This document shows positions 4,690 through 23,471 of a DNA stretch of 28,602 nucleotides, piece by piece. Source of the DNA: a virus. The stretch is from the IMG/VR virus record IMGVR_UViG_3300042354_000005, positions 1-28,602 of that record. One strand, 5' to 3'. The position numbers and the translations under genes were made by a program. Position 1 is the stretch's first letter. Each line of letters starts with the position of its first letter. The notes under the pieces were generated by a model, which did no database searches, was not told the origin of the DNA, and worked only from the letters and a program-made list of their open reading frames with translations.

Positions 4690-4718
4690 ACAAATATATG
4701 AATTATTATAATATAGGT
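4690..4718 (+). promoter_or_regulatory. Late promoter-like motif, copy 2
   Basis: ACAAAT at 4690-4695, a 13-base spacer, then TAATATAGGT at 4709-4718, abutting the ATG at 4719 of the protease gene. It has the same spacing as copy 1. Confidence 0.55.
4691..4698 (-). promoter_or_regulatory. Host-type -7 element for the reverse chaperone genes
   Basis: On the minus strand this reads TATATTTG, matching the Bacteroidota -7 consensus TAnnTTTG. It lies about 14 bases upstream of the ATG at 4676. A TTTG exists upstream but at 24 bases rather than 19-21, so the -33 part is weak. It overlaps the ACAAAT half of the divergent plus-strand late motif. Confidence 0.4.
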
Positions 4719-7263: not shown

Positions 7264-7271
7264 ATTTCTAA

Positions 7272-7300
7272 ACATTTAAGAGTAGTTATATAATATAGGT
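7272..7300 (+). promoter_or_regulatory. Late promoter-like motif, copy 3
   Basis: ACATTT at 7272-7277, a 13-base spacer, then TAATATAGGT at 7291-7300, abutting the ATG at 7301. It follows an intrinsic terminator, so a new transcript would be expected to start here. Confidence 0.55.
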
Positions 7301-11918: not shown

Positions 11919-11957
11919 AGCCCCTGCATCTTTGGTTAGTTTGGCAGGGGTTTTTTT
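11919..11957 (+). terminator. Strong intrinsic terminator closing the late operon
   Basis: CCCCTGC (11921-11927) pairs perfectly with GCAGGGG (11944-11950) around a 16-base loop and is followed by seven T residues. It ends the lysis/exonuclease unit and insulates the following early promoter region. Confidence 0.85.
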
Positions 11958-12332
11958 GTGTCCTAATTTTACAAAGATTTGTGACGGTTTAAACCAACAT
12001 AATAGCTGTAATGGTAGCGTAATGTAAGATATAACTAACATAATAACCCCTTTATGTAAAGTATATTTAAGGTTATATCCTTATTCCTTATGTATAAATT
12101 AAGGCTATTCCTTTACATAATGGTGAAATTAAGTATAAATCACCCTGATTAATTAAATTTCCTTATTTAGAATGATTATAAATTACATATCTAAAATGTA
12201 ATAAAATCAAGGGTTTTAAAAAAAGATTGTAAATAATTTAAAAAAAATGTCAATAAAATTTGGTCAGTAAAATAATGCACTCTATATTTGCGTATAACAA
12301 AACGGAATACTAACCAATTAAAACTAACCAAA
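11958..12332. promoter_or_regulatory. Non-coding early control region with dyad repeats
   Basis: About 375 bases with no credible gene. It holds short inverted copies of TTATGTAAAG (near 12054-12063) and CTTTACATAA (about 12111-12120), a near-palindrome AAGGTTATATCCTT (about 12070-12083), other CCTTAT/AAGG repeats, a GGTGA...TCACC hairpin around 12122-12144, and long A/T runs before the early promoter. This is a plausible operator or origin-linked region; no known binding site was recognised. An upstream TTG at 12288 could extend the next frame but falls inside the promoter. Confidence 0.5.
12259..12290 (+). promoter_or_regulatory. Bacteroidota-type early promoter P1
   Basis: TTTG at 12259-12262, then 20 bases, then TATATTTG at 12283-12290, which matches the -33/-7 consensus TTTG-N19-21-TAnnTTTG of Bacteroidota housekeeping sigma factors. 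It lies about 42 bases ahead of the first early gene and resembles the promoter at 17120 along about 39 bases (29 identical). Confidence 0.75.
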
Positions 12333-13804: not shown

Positions 13805-13947
13805 AAAGGTATAAAGTAACTTACAATTATTTCATAGACGGAAAAAAACGAATAGCTATCAGAATACTAGAAGCACTAGATAGAGAACACGCAATAATGC
13901 AAATGGCTATGTGGCCAAAACTAATATTAAAAGTAGAAACATTATGA
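13801..13947 (+). CDS. Very small protein, unknown
   Basis: A 48-residue basic protein starting at the ATGA overlap with the HTH gene. The pattern YKVTYNYFIDGKKRIAIRIL then EALDREHAIMQM suggests a small beta-beta-alpha domain. The stop overlaps the start of the DnaA-like gene (ATGA at 13944). The double coupling supports expression. No function recognised. Confidence 0.5.
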   Translation: MKRYKVTYNYFIDGKKRIAIRILEALDREHAIMQMAMWPKLILKVETL

Positions 13948-14333
13948 TTGAAAGAATAGAACAGATTATCGAAGAACAAAATTTAAGGGAAAAATCAAGA
14001 TACAGGTATTTAGTACACAGGAGATGGTTTTTATTTGGAATCTTGCGTAAACACGGAATAATTTACAAACGAATAGGCGAGATGTTTAACTTAAACCATT
14101 CAACTATTTTATATGGGATGGCAATGGCTGACTTTTACGAGCGCCAAAAAGACGAACTTTACTTACTTGATACGATGGAGCTACAAAAAGAATTTGCCGG
14201 AGTAGAAATAGTATTCCATCAGCGCAATCTTATTGATGACATTCACAATTGCAAATCAATGAATGAACTTTCAGTTATTCAATGTCGATTAAAAAACAAT
14301 CAATACTTAAACTATAACAATTTAAATCATTAA
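13944..14333 (+). CDS. DnaA domain IV-like DNA-binding protein, putative replication protein
   Basis: A 129-residue protein from the ATG at 13944 (ATGA overlap); an in-frame ATG upstream at 13911 is less likely. Residues 38-60, HGIIYKRIGEMFNLNHSTIL, match the DnaA domain IV pattern (IG..F...HST) used to bind DnaA boxes. There is no AAA+ domain, so it would be a stand-alone DNA-binding module. The next gene is a replication protein, so a role at the origin or in control of replication genes is plausible. It could instead be a transcription regulator. Confidence 0.6.
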   Translation: MIERIEQIIEEQNLREKSRYRYLVHRRWFLFGILRKHGIIYKRIGEMFNLNHSTILYGMAMADFYERQKDELYLLDTMELQKEFAGVEIVFHQRNLIDDIHNCKSMNELSVIQCRLKNNQYLNYNNLNH

Positions 14334-17119: not shown

Positions 17120-17151
17120 TTAGGTGGGTAAATTAATACTCTTTATATTTG
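17120..17151 (+). promoter_or_regulatory. Bacteroidota-type promoter P2
   Basis: TATATTTG at 17144-17151 matches the -7 consensus, with TTAG at 17120-17123 in the -33 position (20-base spacing). The region shares 29 of 39 bases with P1, and the following gene has the same leader AAAAACTAACCAAA. Confidence 0.7.
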
Positions 17152-20446: not shown

Positions 20447-20695
20447 ATGAATTTACTCGCATTAGTTCCTTTGGCTTGGTGGTTTGTTAATTTCGAGCCA
20501 CTTCAAGCTGTGTTTGATTATCTATTTAGGTACAAACCAAATAGCACATTAGCCATACATATCCATTCCGCTTTGGGCTGTATTAAATGTGTGGCTTTTT
20601 GGTTAACCTTGCTTTGCACCTTTGATTTTATACTTGCTTGTCAAGCCTCACTTATTGCTTATATACTAGATGAATGTTTGAACAGGCTGAAATAG
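20447..20695 (+). CDS. Small membrane protein with two or three hydrophobic segments
   Basis: An 82-residue protein. Hydrophobic segments lie at about residues 1-20 (MNLLALVPLAWWFVNF), 40-60 (SALGCIKCVAFWLTLLCTFD) and 62-78 (ILACQASLIAYIL). The CIKCVAFW motif, a Cys pair before a membrane helix, is similar to small membrane proteins seen in Bacteroidota phages. It overlaps the next gene by 22 bases. Possible roles include superinfection exclusion or an accessory to lysis; neither is shown by the sequence. Confidence 0.6.
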   Translation: MNLLALVPLAWWFVNFEPLQAVFDYLFRYKPNSTLAIHIHSALGCIKCVAFWLTLLCTFDFILACQASLIAYILDECLNRLK

Positions 20696-20889
20696 ATTTA
20701 ATCGCAGAGATAGAGTTATTACCCGAGAATATTAGGTACTCAAAACACAGTTGTGTCAGTTTATATAAAATTAGAACGAAGTATGATGGTATACAGCCTA
20801 GGGAATGTTTCTGTGCGTCAGTAAGACGGAGGATTTGGTATAAAGATTTTATGATTTGGTATGAAAAAAGCCTTAGACAACTACATTAG
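20674..20889 (+). CDS. Small protein with CFCASVRRRIWYKDF motif, unknown
   Basis: A 71-residue protein with a basic helix and the block GIQPRECFCASVRRRIWYKDF, followed by a Trp/Tyr-rich end. The C-F-C-A-x-x-R-R-R pattern resembles small proteins located just before sigma-like genes of Bacteroidota phages, as I recall. A nucleic-acid or RNA-polymerase contact is possible. It overlaps both neighbours (22 and 29 bases), implying one transcript with the sigma gene. Confidence 0.55.
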   Translation: MFEQAEIDLIAEIELLPENIRYSKHSCVSLYKIRTKYDGIQPRECFCASVRRRIWYKDFMIWYEKSLRQLH

Positions 20890-21403
20890 TAGGGCTTACC
20901 CCGAGGTGAGAGCTTATACAGCTTATTTTCTATCTAAGATGGGGTTATACATAGACGCTGATACTGTTATCAACAATAGTTACCTACACGTTTTAACAAT
21001 CAACGATAATACAACTGATGAGGATAAGGTTAAGAGCTACCTGTTAAATACAATCAAGTATCAAATTCTTTGGAATACATCAAAGAGCCATAAAGACGAT
21101 AGAATAACAGCCATCGAGGACAAATCAAACGATAGAATGGAAGATGATGAACTAGCAGATAAGATACAGGAGGACAGAAACTACTCTTTTCAAAAGGGAC
21201 TGCTTGAAATCTACCGGTTAAGCCTTACAGATAACGTACAACGAATAGTTTTTGAGGCATACATTGACAAAGGATACACCACATCAAGAGCTTTGGCTAT
21301 TTACTTTGGAATTACCCATACATCTGCTTACTATCTCATCAAAGAGTTAAAACAAAATCTTAACAAATTACAATATAGGTATGAAACCGAGTCAATTTAT
21401 TAG
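20861..21403 (+). CDS. ECF-like RNA polymerase sigma factor, candidate late regulator
   Basis: A 180-residue protein with the two-domain layout of an ECF-type sigma factor. A helical N-terminal part with VINNSYLHVL and KVKSYLLNTIKYQILWNTSK resembles region 2, then an acidic linker (EDKSNDRMEDDELADKI), and a C-terminal GYTTSRALAIYFGITHTSAYYLIKEL helix-turn-helix resembles region 4. Its last 33 bases contain a late promoter-like motif that leads into the packaging genes. Sequence identity to known sigma factors cannot be shown here, so the assignment is an inference, but layout, size and position all fit. Confidence 0.6.
   Translation: MKKALDNYISRAYPEVRAYTAYFLSKMGLYIDADTVINNSYLHVLTINDNTTDEDKVKSYLLNTIKYQILWNTSKSHKDDRITAIEDKSNDRMEDDELADKIQEDRNYSFQKGLLEIYRLSLTDNVQRIVFEAYIDKGYTTSRALAIYFGITHTSAYYLIKELKQNLNKLQYRYETESIY
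21352..21380 (+). promoter_or_regulatory. Late promoter-like motif, copy 4 (start of the late operon)
   Basis: ACAAAA at 21352-21357, a 13-base spacer, then CAATATAGGT at 21371-21380, abutting the ATG at 21381. It lies inside the 3' end of the sigma gene and precedes the packaging genes. Confidence 0.55.
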
Positions 21404-21557
21404 CATAGTATCTTTACTTACAGCCTTGAGTTGTGGTTTAGCTTTATTCACCCTAGATTATGAATGGGCAAGTAGAGCTGCCGGACTATGGATTGCATTC
21501 TATTACACATTTTTAATTTTACTACAATATGAAGACAAAGACGGAACACCTAGGTAA
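21381..21557 (+). CDS. Small two-span membrane protein, first late gene
   Basis: A 58-residue protein, MKPSQFISIVSLLTALSCGL, with hydrophobic segments at about residues 6-24 and 34-49 (GLWIAFYYTFLILLQY). It starts exactly at the late motif and overlaps the end of the sigma gene by 23 bases and the next gene by 29. It could be a small holin-like or inner-membrane protein; no motif decides this. Confidence 0.5.
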   Translation: MKPSQFISIVSLLTALSCGLALFTLDYEWASRAAGLWIAFYYTFLILLQYEDKDGTPR

Positions 21558-21744
21558 GTTCATTACTACCTACAACGGAAATTTTGAGACCTCGTTTACA
21601 GTAACAGAGGAGACAGCTAAAGACCATAAGTATTACACCTCTATAGGTCTAGGTTATTTATTTGAGGAATCAACACCAAAGGCAAAGTACACAGGAGTAG
21701 AAAACAACAAAAAGACGAAAGAAGATGAGACCCAAGTTGATTGA
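21529..21744 (+). CDS. Small protein before TerS, unknown
   Basis: A 71-residue basic, Thr/Lys-rich protein. FITTYNGNFETSFTVTEETA suggests a strand-rich N-terminal half and the end is disordered (NKKTKEDETQVD). It overlaps the preceding membrane protein by 29 bases and the terminase small subunit by 20. Function not recognised. Confidence 0.5.
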   Translation: MKTKTEHLGKFITTYNGNFETSFTVTEETAKDHKYYTSIGLGYLFEESTPKAKYTGVENNKKTKEDETQVD

Positions 21745-22144
21745 ATCACCTGAGAAGTTAATGCAAATATTTGAGGAGTACAAAGCATACTGTTTAGCTA
21801 ACCCAAGAACTAAATGGGTGTTATCTCAAAAGACTGCAGAAATGGTAGCAGAGCCATTGAGAGTACCTTTAACAAATGAGGGGTTTGAGATATTCTGCTA
21901 TAAAAATTACTCAGACGTTCACCATTATTTTGATAACACAGATGGTCGATATTCTGAGTATAGGACAATCTGTTCGCACATAAAGAAGGAAATCCGAAAC
22001 GACCAAATCACAGGAGGAATGGTAGGACAATTTAACCCATCCATCACCCAAAGATTAAACGCTCTTAAAGAACAAACAGATGTGACAAGCGACAATGAAA
22101 AGATTAACTCTATCACAGTTACAATCGTGAAGCCTACCGAGTAA
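21725..22144 (+). CDS. Terminase small subunit (DNA-recognition), putative
   Basis: A 139-residue protein directly upstream of the terminase large subunit. A helical DNA-binding-like N-terminal half (PEKLMQIFEEYKAYCLAN; LTNEGFEIFCYKNYSDVHHY) and a C-terminal GGMVGQFNPSITQRLNALKE segment match phage small subunits that recognise DNA ends ('F..N..IAQRL.GL.E' pattern). The stop is immediately followed by the large-subunit start codon, so the two are co-translated. Confidence 0.75.
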   Translation: MRPKLIESPEKLMQIFEEYKAYCLANPRTKWVLSQKTAEMVAEPLRVPLTNEGFEIFCYKNYSDVHHYFDNTDGRYSEYRTICSHIKKEIRNDQITGGMVGQFNPSITQRLNALKEQTDVTSDNEKINSITVTIVKPTE

Positions 22145-23293
22145 ATGAATATCAAAAGCACAGTCATCTTTGAGAAGAACTATGAGGCTATCGCAGGTGA
22201 CAAACGCTTTATCATAAACGAGGGAGGGTCAAGGTCATCAAAGACGTACAGCCTTTGTCAGTTAATGATTATCTACTGCCTCCAAAATAACAATAAGGTA
22301 GTCAGCGTTATCCGTAAGACATTCCCTGCATTGAGAGCCACAGTACTCCGTGACTTCATAGAGATACTCAAAGACATTGGATTGTATAATCAAGAAGCTC
22401 ACAACAAGTCAGAGCATATATACACCTTTGCCAATGGGTCAATGATTGAATTCTTCTCAGTAGATAATGAGCAGAAGATAAGAGGTCGCAAGAGAGACAT
22501 CGCTTGGATGAATGAGGCTAACGAATTATTCTTTGATGACTACACCCAAATAAATATGAGAACGGAGGACAAGTTAATCTTTGATTACAATCCTTCTGAC
22601 TCTGTCTCGTGGCTGTATGAGCTACCAAAAGACGAAAGCACTCTTATTAAATCTACCTATAGAGATAACCCATTCCTCCCGGAAAGCATCAAGGTACAGA
22701 TAGAAGACCTTAAGCGTACAGATGAGGCACTATACCAAATCTATGCGCTAGGAGAGAAAGCCATAAGCAAGAGTAACATCTATAGCAATTGGTCATTCGT
22801 TACACATAGGCCTAGCAGATTCGTTAAGTATGTATACGGAATTGATTTCGGCTATAACCATCCAACGGCATTGATAAGAGTCTACTATTGTGACAATGAC
22901 ATATACATCGAGCCGGTCATCTACGAGAGTTACCTGACAACTACGATGCTAATAGAAAAGTTAGGCACCCTAGGCATAGAACAAACGGTAACCATCCTAG
23001 CAGATTACTCTAGACCCGAAATAATACAAGAGATGAATACGGCAGGTTATGATGTACAGAATGCTAACAAGGTAGTCAAGAAGGGAATAGACAACTTAAA
23101 GACCTTTGGCGTAATCTGTCAAGATGATAAGGCCATAAGGCGAGAATACGAAAACTACAAATGGAAGAAGATAGGTGACCAAATTCTAGATGAGCCCGTT
23201 AAATTATTTGATGATGCTATGGATGCTATCAGATATGCCACTACTCACATAAGGCAGGAGTACTACACCGATGACTCGTACTATGCATTCTAA
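22145..23293 (+). CDS. terL: Terminase large subunit (packaging ATPase and nuclease)
   Basis: A 382-residue motor that packages DNA into the prohead. The ATPase domain has Walker A GGSRSSKT at residues 27-34, a Walker B-like DIAWMNEAN with Glu at about 124, and FDYNPSD at about 146-152. The nuclease domain has YGIDFGY (Asp234), LADYSRPE (Asp287) and DDAMDAIRYA (Asp356-360), the three acidic metal sites of PBSX/XtmB-type terminases. It is short, lacking a long C-terminal extension, but complete. The start immediately follows TerS; the portal is about 14 kb away on the circle. Confidence 0.92.
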   Translation: MNIKSTVIFEKNYEAIAGDKRFIINEGGSRSSKTYSLCQLMIIYCLQNNNKVVSVIRKTFPALRATVLRDFIEILKDIGLYNQEAHNKSEHIYTFANGSMIEFFSVDNEQKIRGRKRDIAWMNEANELFFDDYTQINMRTEDKLIFDYNPSDSVSWLYELPKDESTLIKSTYRDNPFLPESIKVQIEDLKRTDEALYQIYALGEKAISKSNIYSNWSFVTHRPSRFVKYVYGIDFGYNHPTALIRVYYCDNDIYIEPVIYESYLTTTMLIEKLGTLGIEQTVTILADYSRPEIIQEMNTAGYDVQNANKVVKKGIDNLKTFGVICQDDKAIRREYENYKWKKIGDQILDEPVKLFDDAMDAIRYATTHIRQEYYTDDSYYAF

Positions 23294-23459
23294 CACCTTA
23301 CACAAGATACAAGTCGTACAAGCTTACATACACCATAAGACCGGGCAGAATGTTAGGATAGTCTTTGACAGACCTGAACGTATGCAACAACATCTAATGC
23401 TTTTAGACCAAGCGTATATGGTAGCGATGAATGCCTTTAAAAACACGAACACGAAATAA
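23271..23459 (+). CDS. Small protein overlapping TerL, unknown
   Basis: A 62-residue protein (or 58 from the Met at 23283) that overlaps the TerL end by 23 bases. VQAYIHHKTGQNVRIVFDRP then MQQHLMLLDQAYMVAMNAF forms a small beta-alpha-like domain. No known motif; its place between TerL and the tail gene is like small packaging accessory proteins. Confidence 0.45.
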   Translation: MTRTMHSNTLHKIQVVQAYIHHKTGQNVRIVFDRPERMQQHLMLLDQAYMVAMNAFKNTNTK

Positions 23460-23471
23460 AGTAATATAGGT
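23443..23471 (+). promoter_or_regulatory. Late promoter-like motif, copy 5
   Basis: ACACGA at 23443-23448, a 13-base spacer, then TAATATAGGT at 23462-23471. The ATG follows 12 bases later, at 23483, so this copy has a short leader, unlike the other four. Confidence 0.5.

Follow-up and report, generated by a model that had tools for sequence, protein, structure and literature searches.

The window analysed here is the whole 28,602-nucleotide stretch of record IMGVR_UViG_3300042354_000005, a phage contig of 28.6 kb on which terminase, portal, tail, protease and amidase genes were recognised. On its plus strand a gene of 180 codons (20861-21403), present in 20 of 20 relatives, encodes a protein with the predicted fold of an ECF-like sigma factor. 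It is followed on the same strand by the first late gene, which encodes 58 amino acids (21381-21557) and whose start codon is adjoined by the candidate promoter P1, and then by the genes for the small (21725-22144; phrog_606, E 3e-12) and large (22145-23293; phrog_2, E 6e-39) terminase subunits. The labels early and late were assigned by gene order and function; the sigma gene is the final gene of the early region, and the late genes run from P1 onward. As the tail gene set resumes at the contig start, the late region apparently continues across the contig ends, back to an intrinsic terminator on the plus strand at about 11919-11957 (a stem followed by a T run, -21.5 kcal/mol, z -3.8), which lies past the end of the late region and ahead of the first early promoter.

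That promoter, TTTG-N20-TATATTTG at 12259-12290 (plus strand), is of the Bacteroidota sigmaA type, heads the early region and is followed by an ATG 42 nt on. A second host-type TATATTTG element of the early region lies at 17144-17151 (plus strand), 36 nt before its ATG. The host-type promoters that a sequence-only reading of this DNA had assigned to the early genes were thus found at these two places, although TAWWTTTG was only weakly enriched in the window as a whole (24 occurrences versus 16.5 expected, a number reached in 5 of 100 shuffles). Together with the TAnnTTTG promoters, the kinship of the terminase and a DUF3127 protein encoded in the record point to a Bacteroidota host: the large terminase has distant kin in Parabacteroides, Bacteroides and Flavobacterium phages, among others, and the DUF3127 family is also annotated in a Flavobacterium phage. 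The early region also encodes a 140-amino-acid protein (13911-14333, plus strand) with a weak match to the DnaA C-terminal HTH domain (PF08299, E 3e-5) and diverged homologs in most of the 20 relatives.

Within the sigma gene, ACAAAA-N13-CAATATAGGT was found at 21352-21380 (plus strand), directly before the ATG at 21381, where the sequence-only reading had placed a late motif abutting the first late gene. The four further copies that it had announced were also recovered, as the downstream half TAATATAGGT at 2119-2128, 4709-4718, 7291-7300 and 23462-23471, ahead of the late genes starting at 2129, 4719, 7301 and 23483. The core AATATAGGT occurs five times on the plus strand of the window and never on the minus strand (shuffle mean 0.32), and AATATAGGTATG occurs four times (shuffle mean 0.01). 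The upstream half fared less well: ACAAAA is exact in the P1 copy only, and we therefore rewrote the -35 half as AAC(A), 21 nt ahead of AATATA, and dropped ACAAAA as an exact element. In these terms P1 covers 21351-21380, with AAC at 21351-21353, AATATA at 21372-21377 and GGT up to the ATG. P2 (23442-23471; AAC at 23442-23444) ends 11 nt before its ATG, while the other four sites adjoin theirs directly. P3 (2099-2128; AAC at 2099-2101) adjoins the ATG of a tail-protein-like gene, and P5 (7271-7300; AAC at 7271-7273) that of a gene followed by the portal gene. P4 (4690-4718) has ACAAA at 4690, with TAC where the other sites have AAC, and adjoins the ATG of a head protease-like gene (PF14550); this gene was listed from 4698, and its true start is most likely 4719, right behind the motif. 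All five sites lie on the plus strand. The early ATGs stand 36-42 nt past the host-type boxes, in contrast to a distance of mostly 0 at the late sites. No copy of the site was found directly upstream of the sigma gene, and P1 points away from it, which gives no indication of positive autoregulation.

Two observations concern individual sites. The -35 side of P4, ACAAATATA, reads on the minus strand as TATATTTGT, a host-type box (4691-4698) that faces two conserved minus-strand genes (4676-3422) and is kept in 15 of 21 genomes; the P4 region possibly holds overlapping divergent host and late promoters. A P3-type site with its gene start, MSIPNNWGDWRP, is found near both ends of the contigs G005 (L217, L218; 178 and 28849) and G006 (L219, L220; 88 and 28022), which suggests either that these contigs are terminally redundant or that the gene is duplicated.

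To compare the sites among related phages, we used 20 near-complete genomes of 27-32 kb, which with the window make 21. In each relative, the late motif, or a part of it, is among the 8-mers most common right ahead of start codons. The same five genes carry the sites: P2 in 21 of 21 genomes, P5 in 20, P1 in 18, P4 in 17 and P3 in 16. The spacing of P1 is identical in 18 of the 21. The distance from AAC to AATATA is 21 nt in 38 of 55 sites of clade A, to which the window belongs, and 20 or 22 nt in nine more; it is also 21 nt at all 12 clade B sites and at all seven distinct clade C sites. The two boxes are separated by a spacer without conservation. Across the genomes the gap between site and start codon is usually 0-2 nt, and 42 of the 55 clade A sites adjoin the codon directly; in eight genomes the tail-gene copy stands 10-12 nt short of its ATG.

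P1 spans the codons for LQYRYE near the end of the sigma protein. Among 90 distinct clade A proteins, which are related, so that the counts are not independent, the embedded site uses CAA in 90 of 90 cases, TAT in 180 of 180 (two tyrosines) and AGG in 85 of 90. Elsewhere in these genes, CAA accounts for 41% of glutamine, TAT for 36% of tyrosine and AGG for 46% of arginine codons. These figures show that P1 is under constraint at the DNA level inside the sigma gene. The arginine is replaced by lysine in clade B and by serine in clade C, and each replacement yields exactly the site of its own clade (TATAAGTATG and TATAGTTATG). The sigma genes of clade D are without the embedded site; the 58-amino-acid first late gene, found in 17 of 20 relatives, is missing in all three clade D genomes.

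The bases that follow AATATA differ between the clades and are largely uniform inside any one genome: GGT in clade A, AGT in clade B, GTT in clade C and TATA in clade D. Counted over distinct sites outside the sigma gene, the tail is GGT in 60 of 71 clade A sites (6 GTT, 5 others), AGT in 12 of 12 clade B sites, GTT or GTA in 4 of 4 clade C sites and TAT or TAC in 9 of 15 sites of the remaining clades. In a tree of the sigma protein, built with the C-terminal columns left out, the tail variants cluster by clade. This pattern is what one trans-acting reader would give, with phage phylogeny and a possible change of host as confounders. Since the sites vary in step among related viruses, the proposed late-gene switch is directly testable. 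At residue 67, 62 proteins have Y, and in every one of these cases AATATA is followed by G; another 22 have K or M, and in 21 of them the following base is A or T. We did not adopt this residue as a specificity determinant, as it changed independently very few times and, by the geometry of sigmaE, the variable base lies downstream of the position that this region would be expected to read. It may be that the sigma factor and its five leaderless promoters diverged jointly, giving four or more specificities (GGT, AAGT, GTT and TATA), with one promoter inside the sigma coding end, so that the C-terminal QYRYE, QYKY or QYSYE mirrors the promoter, and with sigma2 residue 67 (Y versus K/M) tracking the base (G versus A/T); we hold this extended reading tentatively, at somewhat less than even chances.

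Sequence comparison gave weak evidence for the identity of the protein. NCBIfam sigma models matched it over nearly its full length (E 3e-4 to 4e-3), all below cut-off, with TIGR02989 at 20.6 bits (cut-off 124.6) and TIGR02937 at 16.8 bits (cut-off 42.9); sigma-70/ECF models are among the top matches for many family members, likewise sub-threshold. Searches of Pfam, PHROGs and PDB sequences with the protein or its alignments returned no usable match, and no Pfam sigma model. A check against ECF profiles, which had been named as a way to confirm the ECF-like assignment, gave no significant match by sequence: profile-profile comparison with 12 ECF sequences was roughly collinear but not significant (probability below 1%), and one of six shuffles outscored it. 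IMG/VR yielded about 280 homologous loci, a number that includes some overlapping fetches of identical contigs. One of them, L151 (IMGVR_UViG_3300044957_000168), is a sigma gene relative on a contig that, at 91.6 kb, is threefold larger than is usual in the group. Among annotated phages, neither the sigma protein nor the head-gene DNA found a match, and distant terminases alone were recovered. The prokaryote genome collection held a single relative, L249 (JAIXRY010000011.1), a 29.6-kb contig in a pond MAG that is probably a misbinned phage. While most early genes are not kept, the sigma gene belongs to the core of the group (20/20 relatives). A 71-amino-acid ORF (20674-20889, plus strand), whose last 29 nt overlap the beginning of the sigma gene, is also present in 20 of 20 relatives, and its product is a possible partner of the sigma factor. 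In a search for an anti-sigma partner, the small neighbouring ORFs at 20447 and 20674 gave no clear Pfam match.

The predicted structure was more informative. From a 39-sequence alignment, AlphaFold2 gave a model (pLDDT 83, pTM 0.41) with two confident helical domains, a predicted sigma2 (residues 1-82 or 1-84, approximately) and a predicted sigma4 (about 106-176), joined by a short linker of low confidence; with the low pTM, the model does not give the orientation of the domains. When this model was compared with the PDB by Foldseek, the best 24 matches were all sigma factors, mostly ECF, and included 9n9q_C, SigL, SigH, E. coli sigmaE, AlgU and SigW. An earlier model, based on a shallow alignment, was of low quality (pLDDT 64), yet ECF sigma factors also ranked first; both models thus bore out the sigma fold that the sequence-only reading had predicted. 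VIA-align gave a Z score of 8.3 for 9n9q_C, a value that is not high among helical proteins. At 2.7 A, 69 residues of the C-terminal domain superposed on region 4 of sigmaE with its -35 DNA, and 80 residues of the N-terminal domain superposed on region 2 of RpoE at 3.5 A. In a viral structure library the nearest relative came first, followed mostly by annotated phage sigma factors, among them the ECF sigma of Cronobacter phage GAP52. The proposed ECF-like identity therefore held by predicted fold, while the evidence from sequence alone stayed weak and sub-threshold; as the scores lie under the curated cut-offs, we call the protein ECF-like by structure and do not enter it as a member of the ECF family.

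Taken together, these results make it likely that a two-domain ECF-like late sigma factor, encoded at the end of the early region, drives leaderless or nearly leaderless late mRNAs from five sites. Early transcription would start at the host-type TAnnTTTG promoters and reach the sigma gene last. Once bound to the core RNA polymerase of the host, the sigma protein would guide the enzyme to five late promoters with the pattern AAC-N18-AATATAGGT. As the first of these is embedded in the 3' coding end of the sigma gene, late transcription of the packaging, tail and head genes would begin at the point where that gene finishes. The -10 part mostly extends right up to the start codon, and late mRNAs are therefore expected to start at the AUG or within 2-3 nt of it. 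With a spacing like that of sigmaE, the start site would lie no more than 2-3 nt from the A of the ATG; the strict sigmaE spacing puts it about 2 nt inside the ATG, which we counted against this explanation. The interpretation is well supported by the comparative and structural evidence; within it, polymerase binding, timing, the start site and the reader of the sites are inferences.

Other explanations of the same sites were considered. The protein could be a sigma-like DNA-binding activator that works with a host sigma factor at the sites, in the manner of ArpU or RinA. Late regulators of this type in other phages are likewise encoded just upstream of the terminase genes, a position that the sigma gene shares, and the sub-threshold matches to sigma profiles would also fit an activator. 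The model, however, has sigma2-like and sigma4-like domains and not an HTH alone, and the -10 part, which is without the host TAnnTTTG box and varies by clade at most sites of a genome, fits a factor that reads the -10 itself. We consider an activator unlikely. It is less probable still that the sites are read by a sigma factor of the host, such as one of its ECFs, that the phage protein does something else and that the drift reflects a change of host. Bacteroidota do have several ECF sigma factors (seven in F. psychrophilum; PMC9723704), and the clades may infect different hosts, but the sigma gene is present in every genome, the embedded site is kept in clades A, B and C, and the ECF-type motif of F. 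psychrophilum has a CGT box, unlike AATATAGGT (PMC9723704).

Since the element adjoins the start codon in most copies, AATATAGGT-ATG could also be a signal for translation carried on the mRNA and not a promoter. Such a signal would hardly account for an AAC box held at a nearly fixed 21 nt across an unconserved spacer, for the tail-gene copy that stands away from its ATG in eight genomes, or for the presence of the element at few late genes only, and we judge this explanation very unlikely indeed. The late sigma factor remains our preferred reading. If it is true, the phages offer a compact pair of sigma factor and promoter, with natural variants, in which a joint change of specificity of the sigma factor and its sites could be tested, and their late mRNAs would be leaderless in a phylum that has no Shine-Dalgarno sequences; in F. 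psychrophilum, 5.5% of mapped mRNAs are leaderless (PMC9723704).

The hallmarks of ECF sigma factors are the presence of sigma2 and sigma4 only, a linker below 50 residues, AAC at -35, CGT at -10, an anti-sigma partner and autoregulation, and the definition was later narrowed to the two domains (PMC8103513). The protein studied here has two predicted domains with a short linker and, if the sites are its targets, AAC stands 20-22 nt before AATATA in most of them; at -10 we found AATATAGGT and its clade variants and no CGT. It resembles E. coli sigmaE, SigW and SigL (group IV ECF) in its predicted two-domain architecture and in the AAC of the -35 element. The spacing of the elements in sigmaE promoters is also close to that of the late sites. 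It differs from these bacterial ECFs in its sub-threshold sequence, in having no recognised anti-sigma partner, in the AATATAGGT that replaces a CGT-type -10, and in a nearest target promoter that faces away from the sigma gene, without autoregulation.

T4 gp55, SPO1 gp28 and gp33-gp34 are phage sigma factors that switch the host polymerase to later genes. As expected of a late sigma factor of the phiEco32 gp36 type, a phage-specific motif is found at five late genes and is conserved in the 20 relatives. Unlike in T4 and SPO1, and by description only, no clamp coupling or co-activator was identified here, although the conserved 71-amino-acid ORF overlaps the sigma start. For Tenacibaculum phage PTm1, which has a Bacteroidota host, the annotated sigma factor (280 aa) gave a weak fold match at rank 29; we know of no defined promoters for it. 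In a literature search that was not exhaustive, we found no description of late-gene control in small Bacteroidota phages.

The closest known case is gp36 of phiEco32, an ECF-family sigma factor of E. coli C3 podophages that recognizes tAATGTATAtA sites (PMC4281155, PMC4331800) and has homologs in SU10, 7-11, GAP52 and Privateer (PMC4281155, PMC4331800, PMC7881722). Both systems would combine a small ECF-like phage sigma factor, AT-rich -10-like sites at late genes and host promoters for early genes. In phiEco32, in contrast to the sites described here, the motif precedes the start point by 6-8 nt and also serves middle genes; here there is an AAC -35 box, the sites adjoin the ATG and the sigma gene itself holds the first one in its 3' end. 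The GAP52 ECF sigma shares about 13% identity with our protein in structural alignment. The kind of switch proposed here is thus known from phiEco32 gp36; new are its occurrence in this phage group, the embedding of a promoter in the sigma gene, the leaderless arrangement and the drift of the sites by clade.
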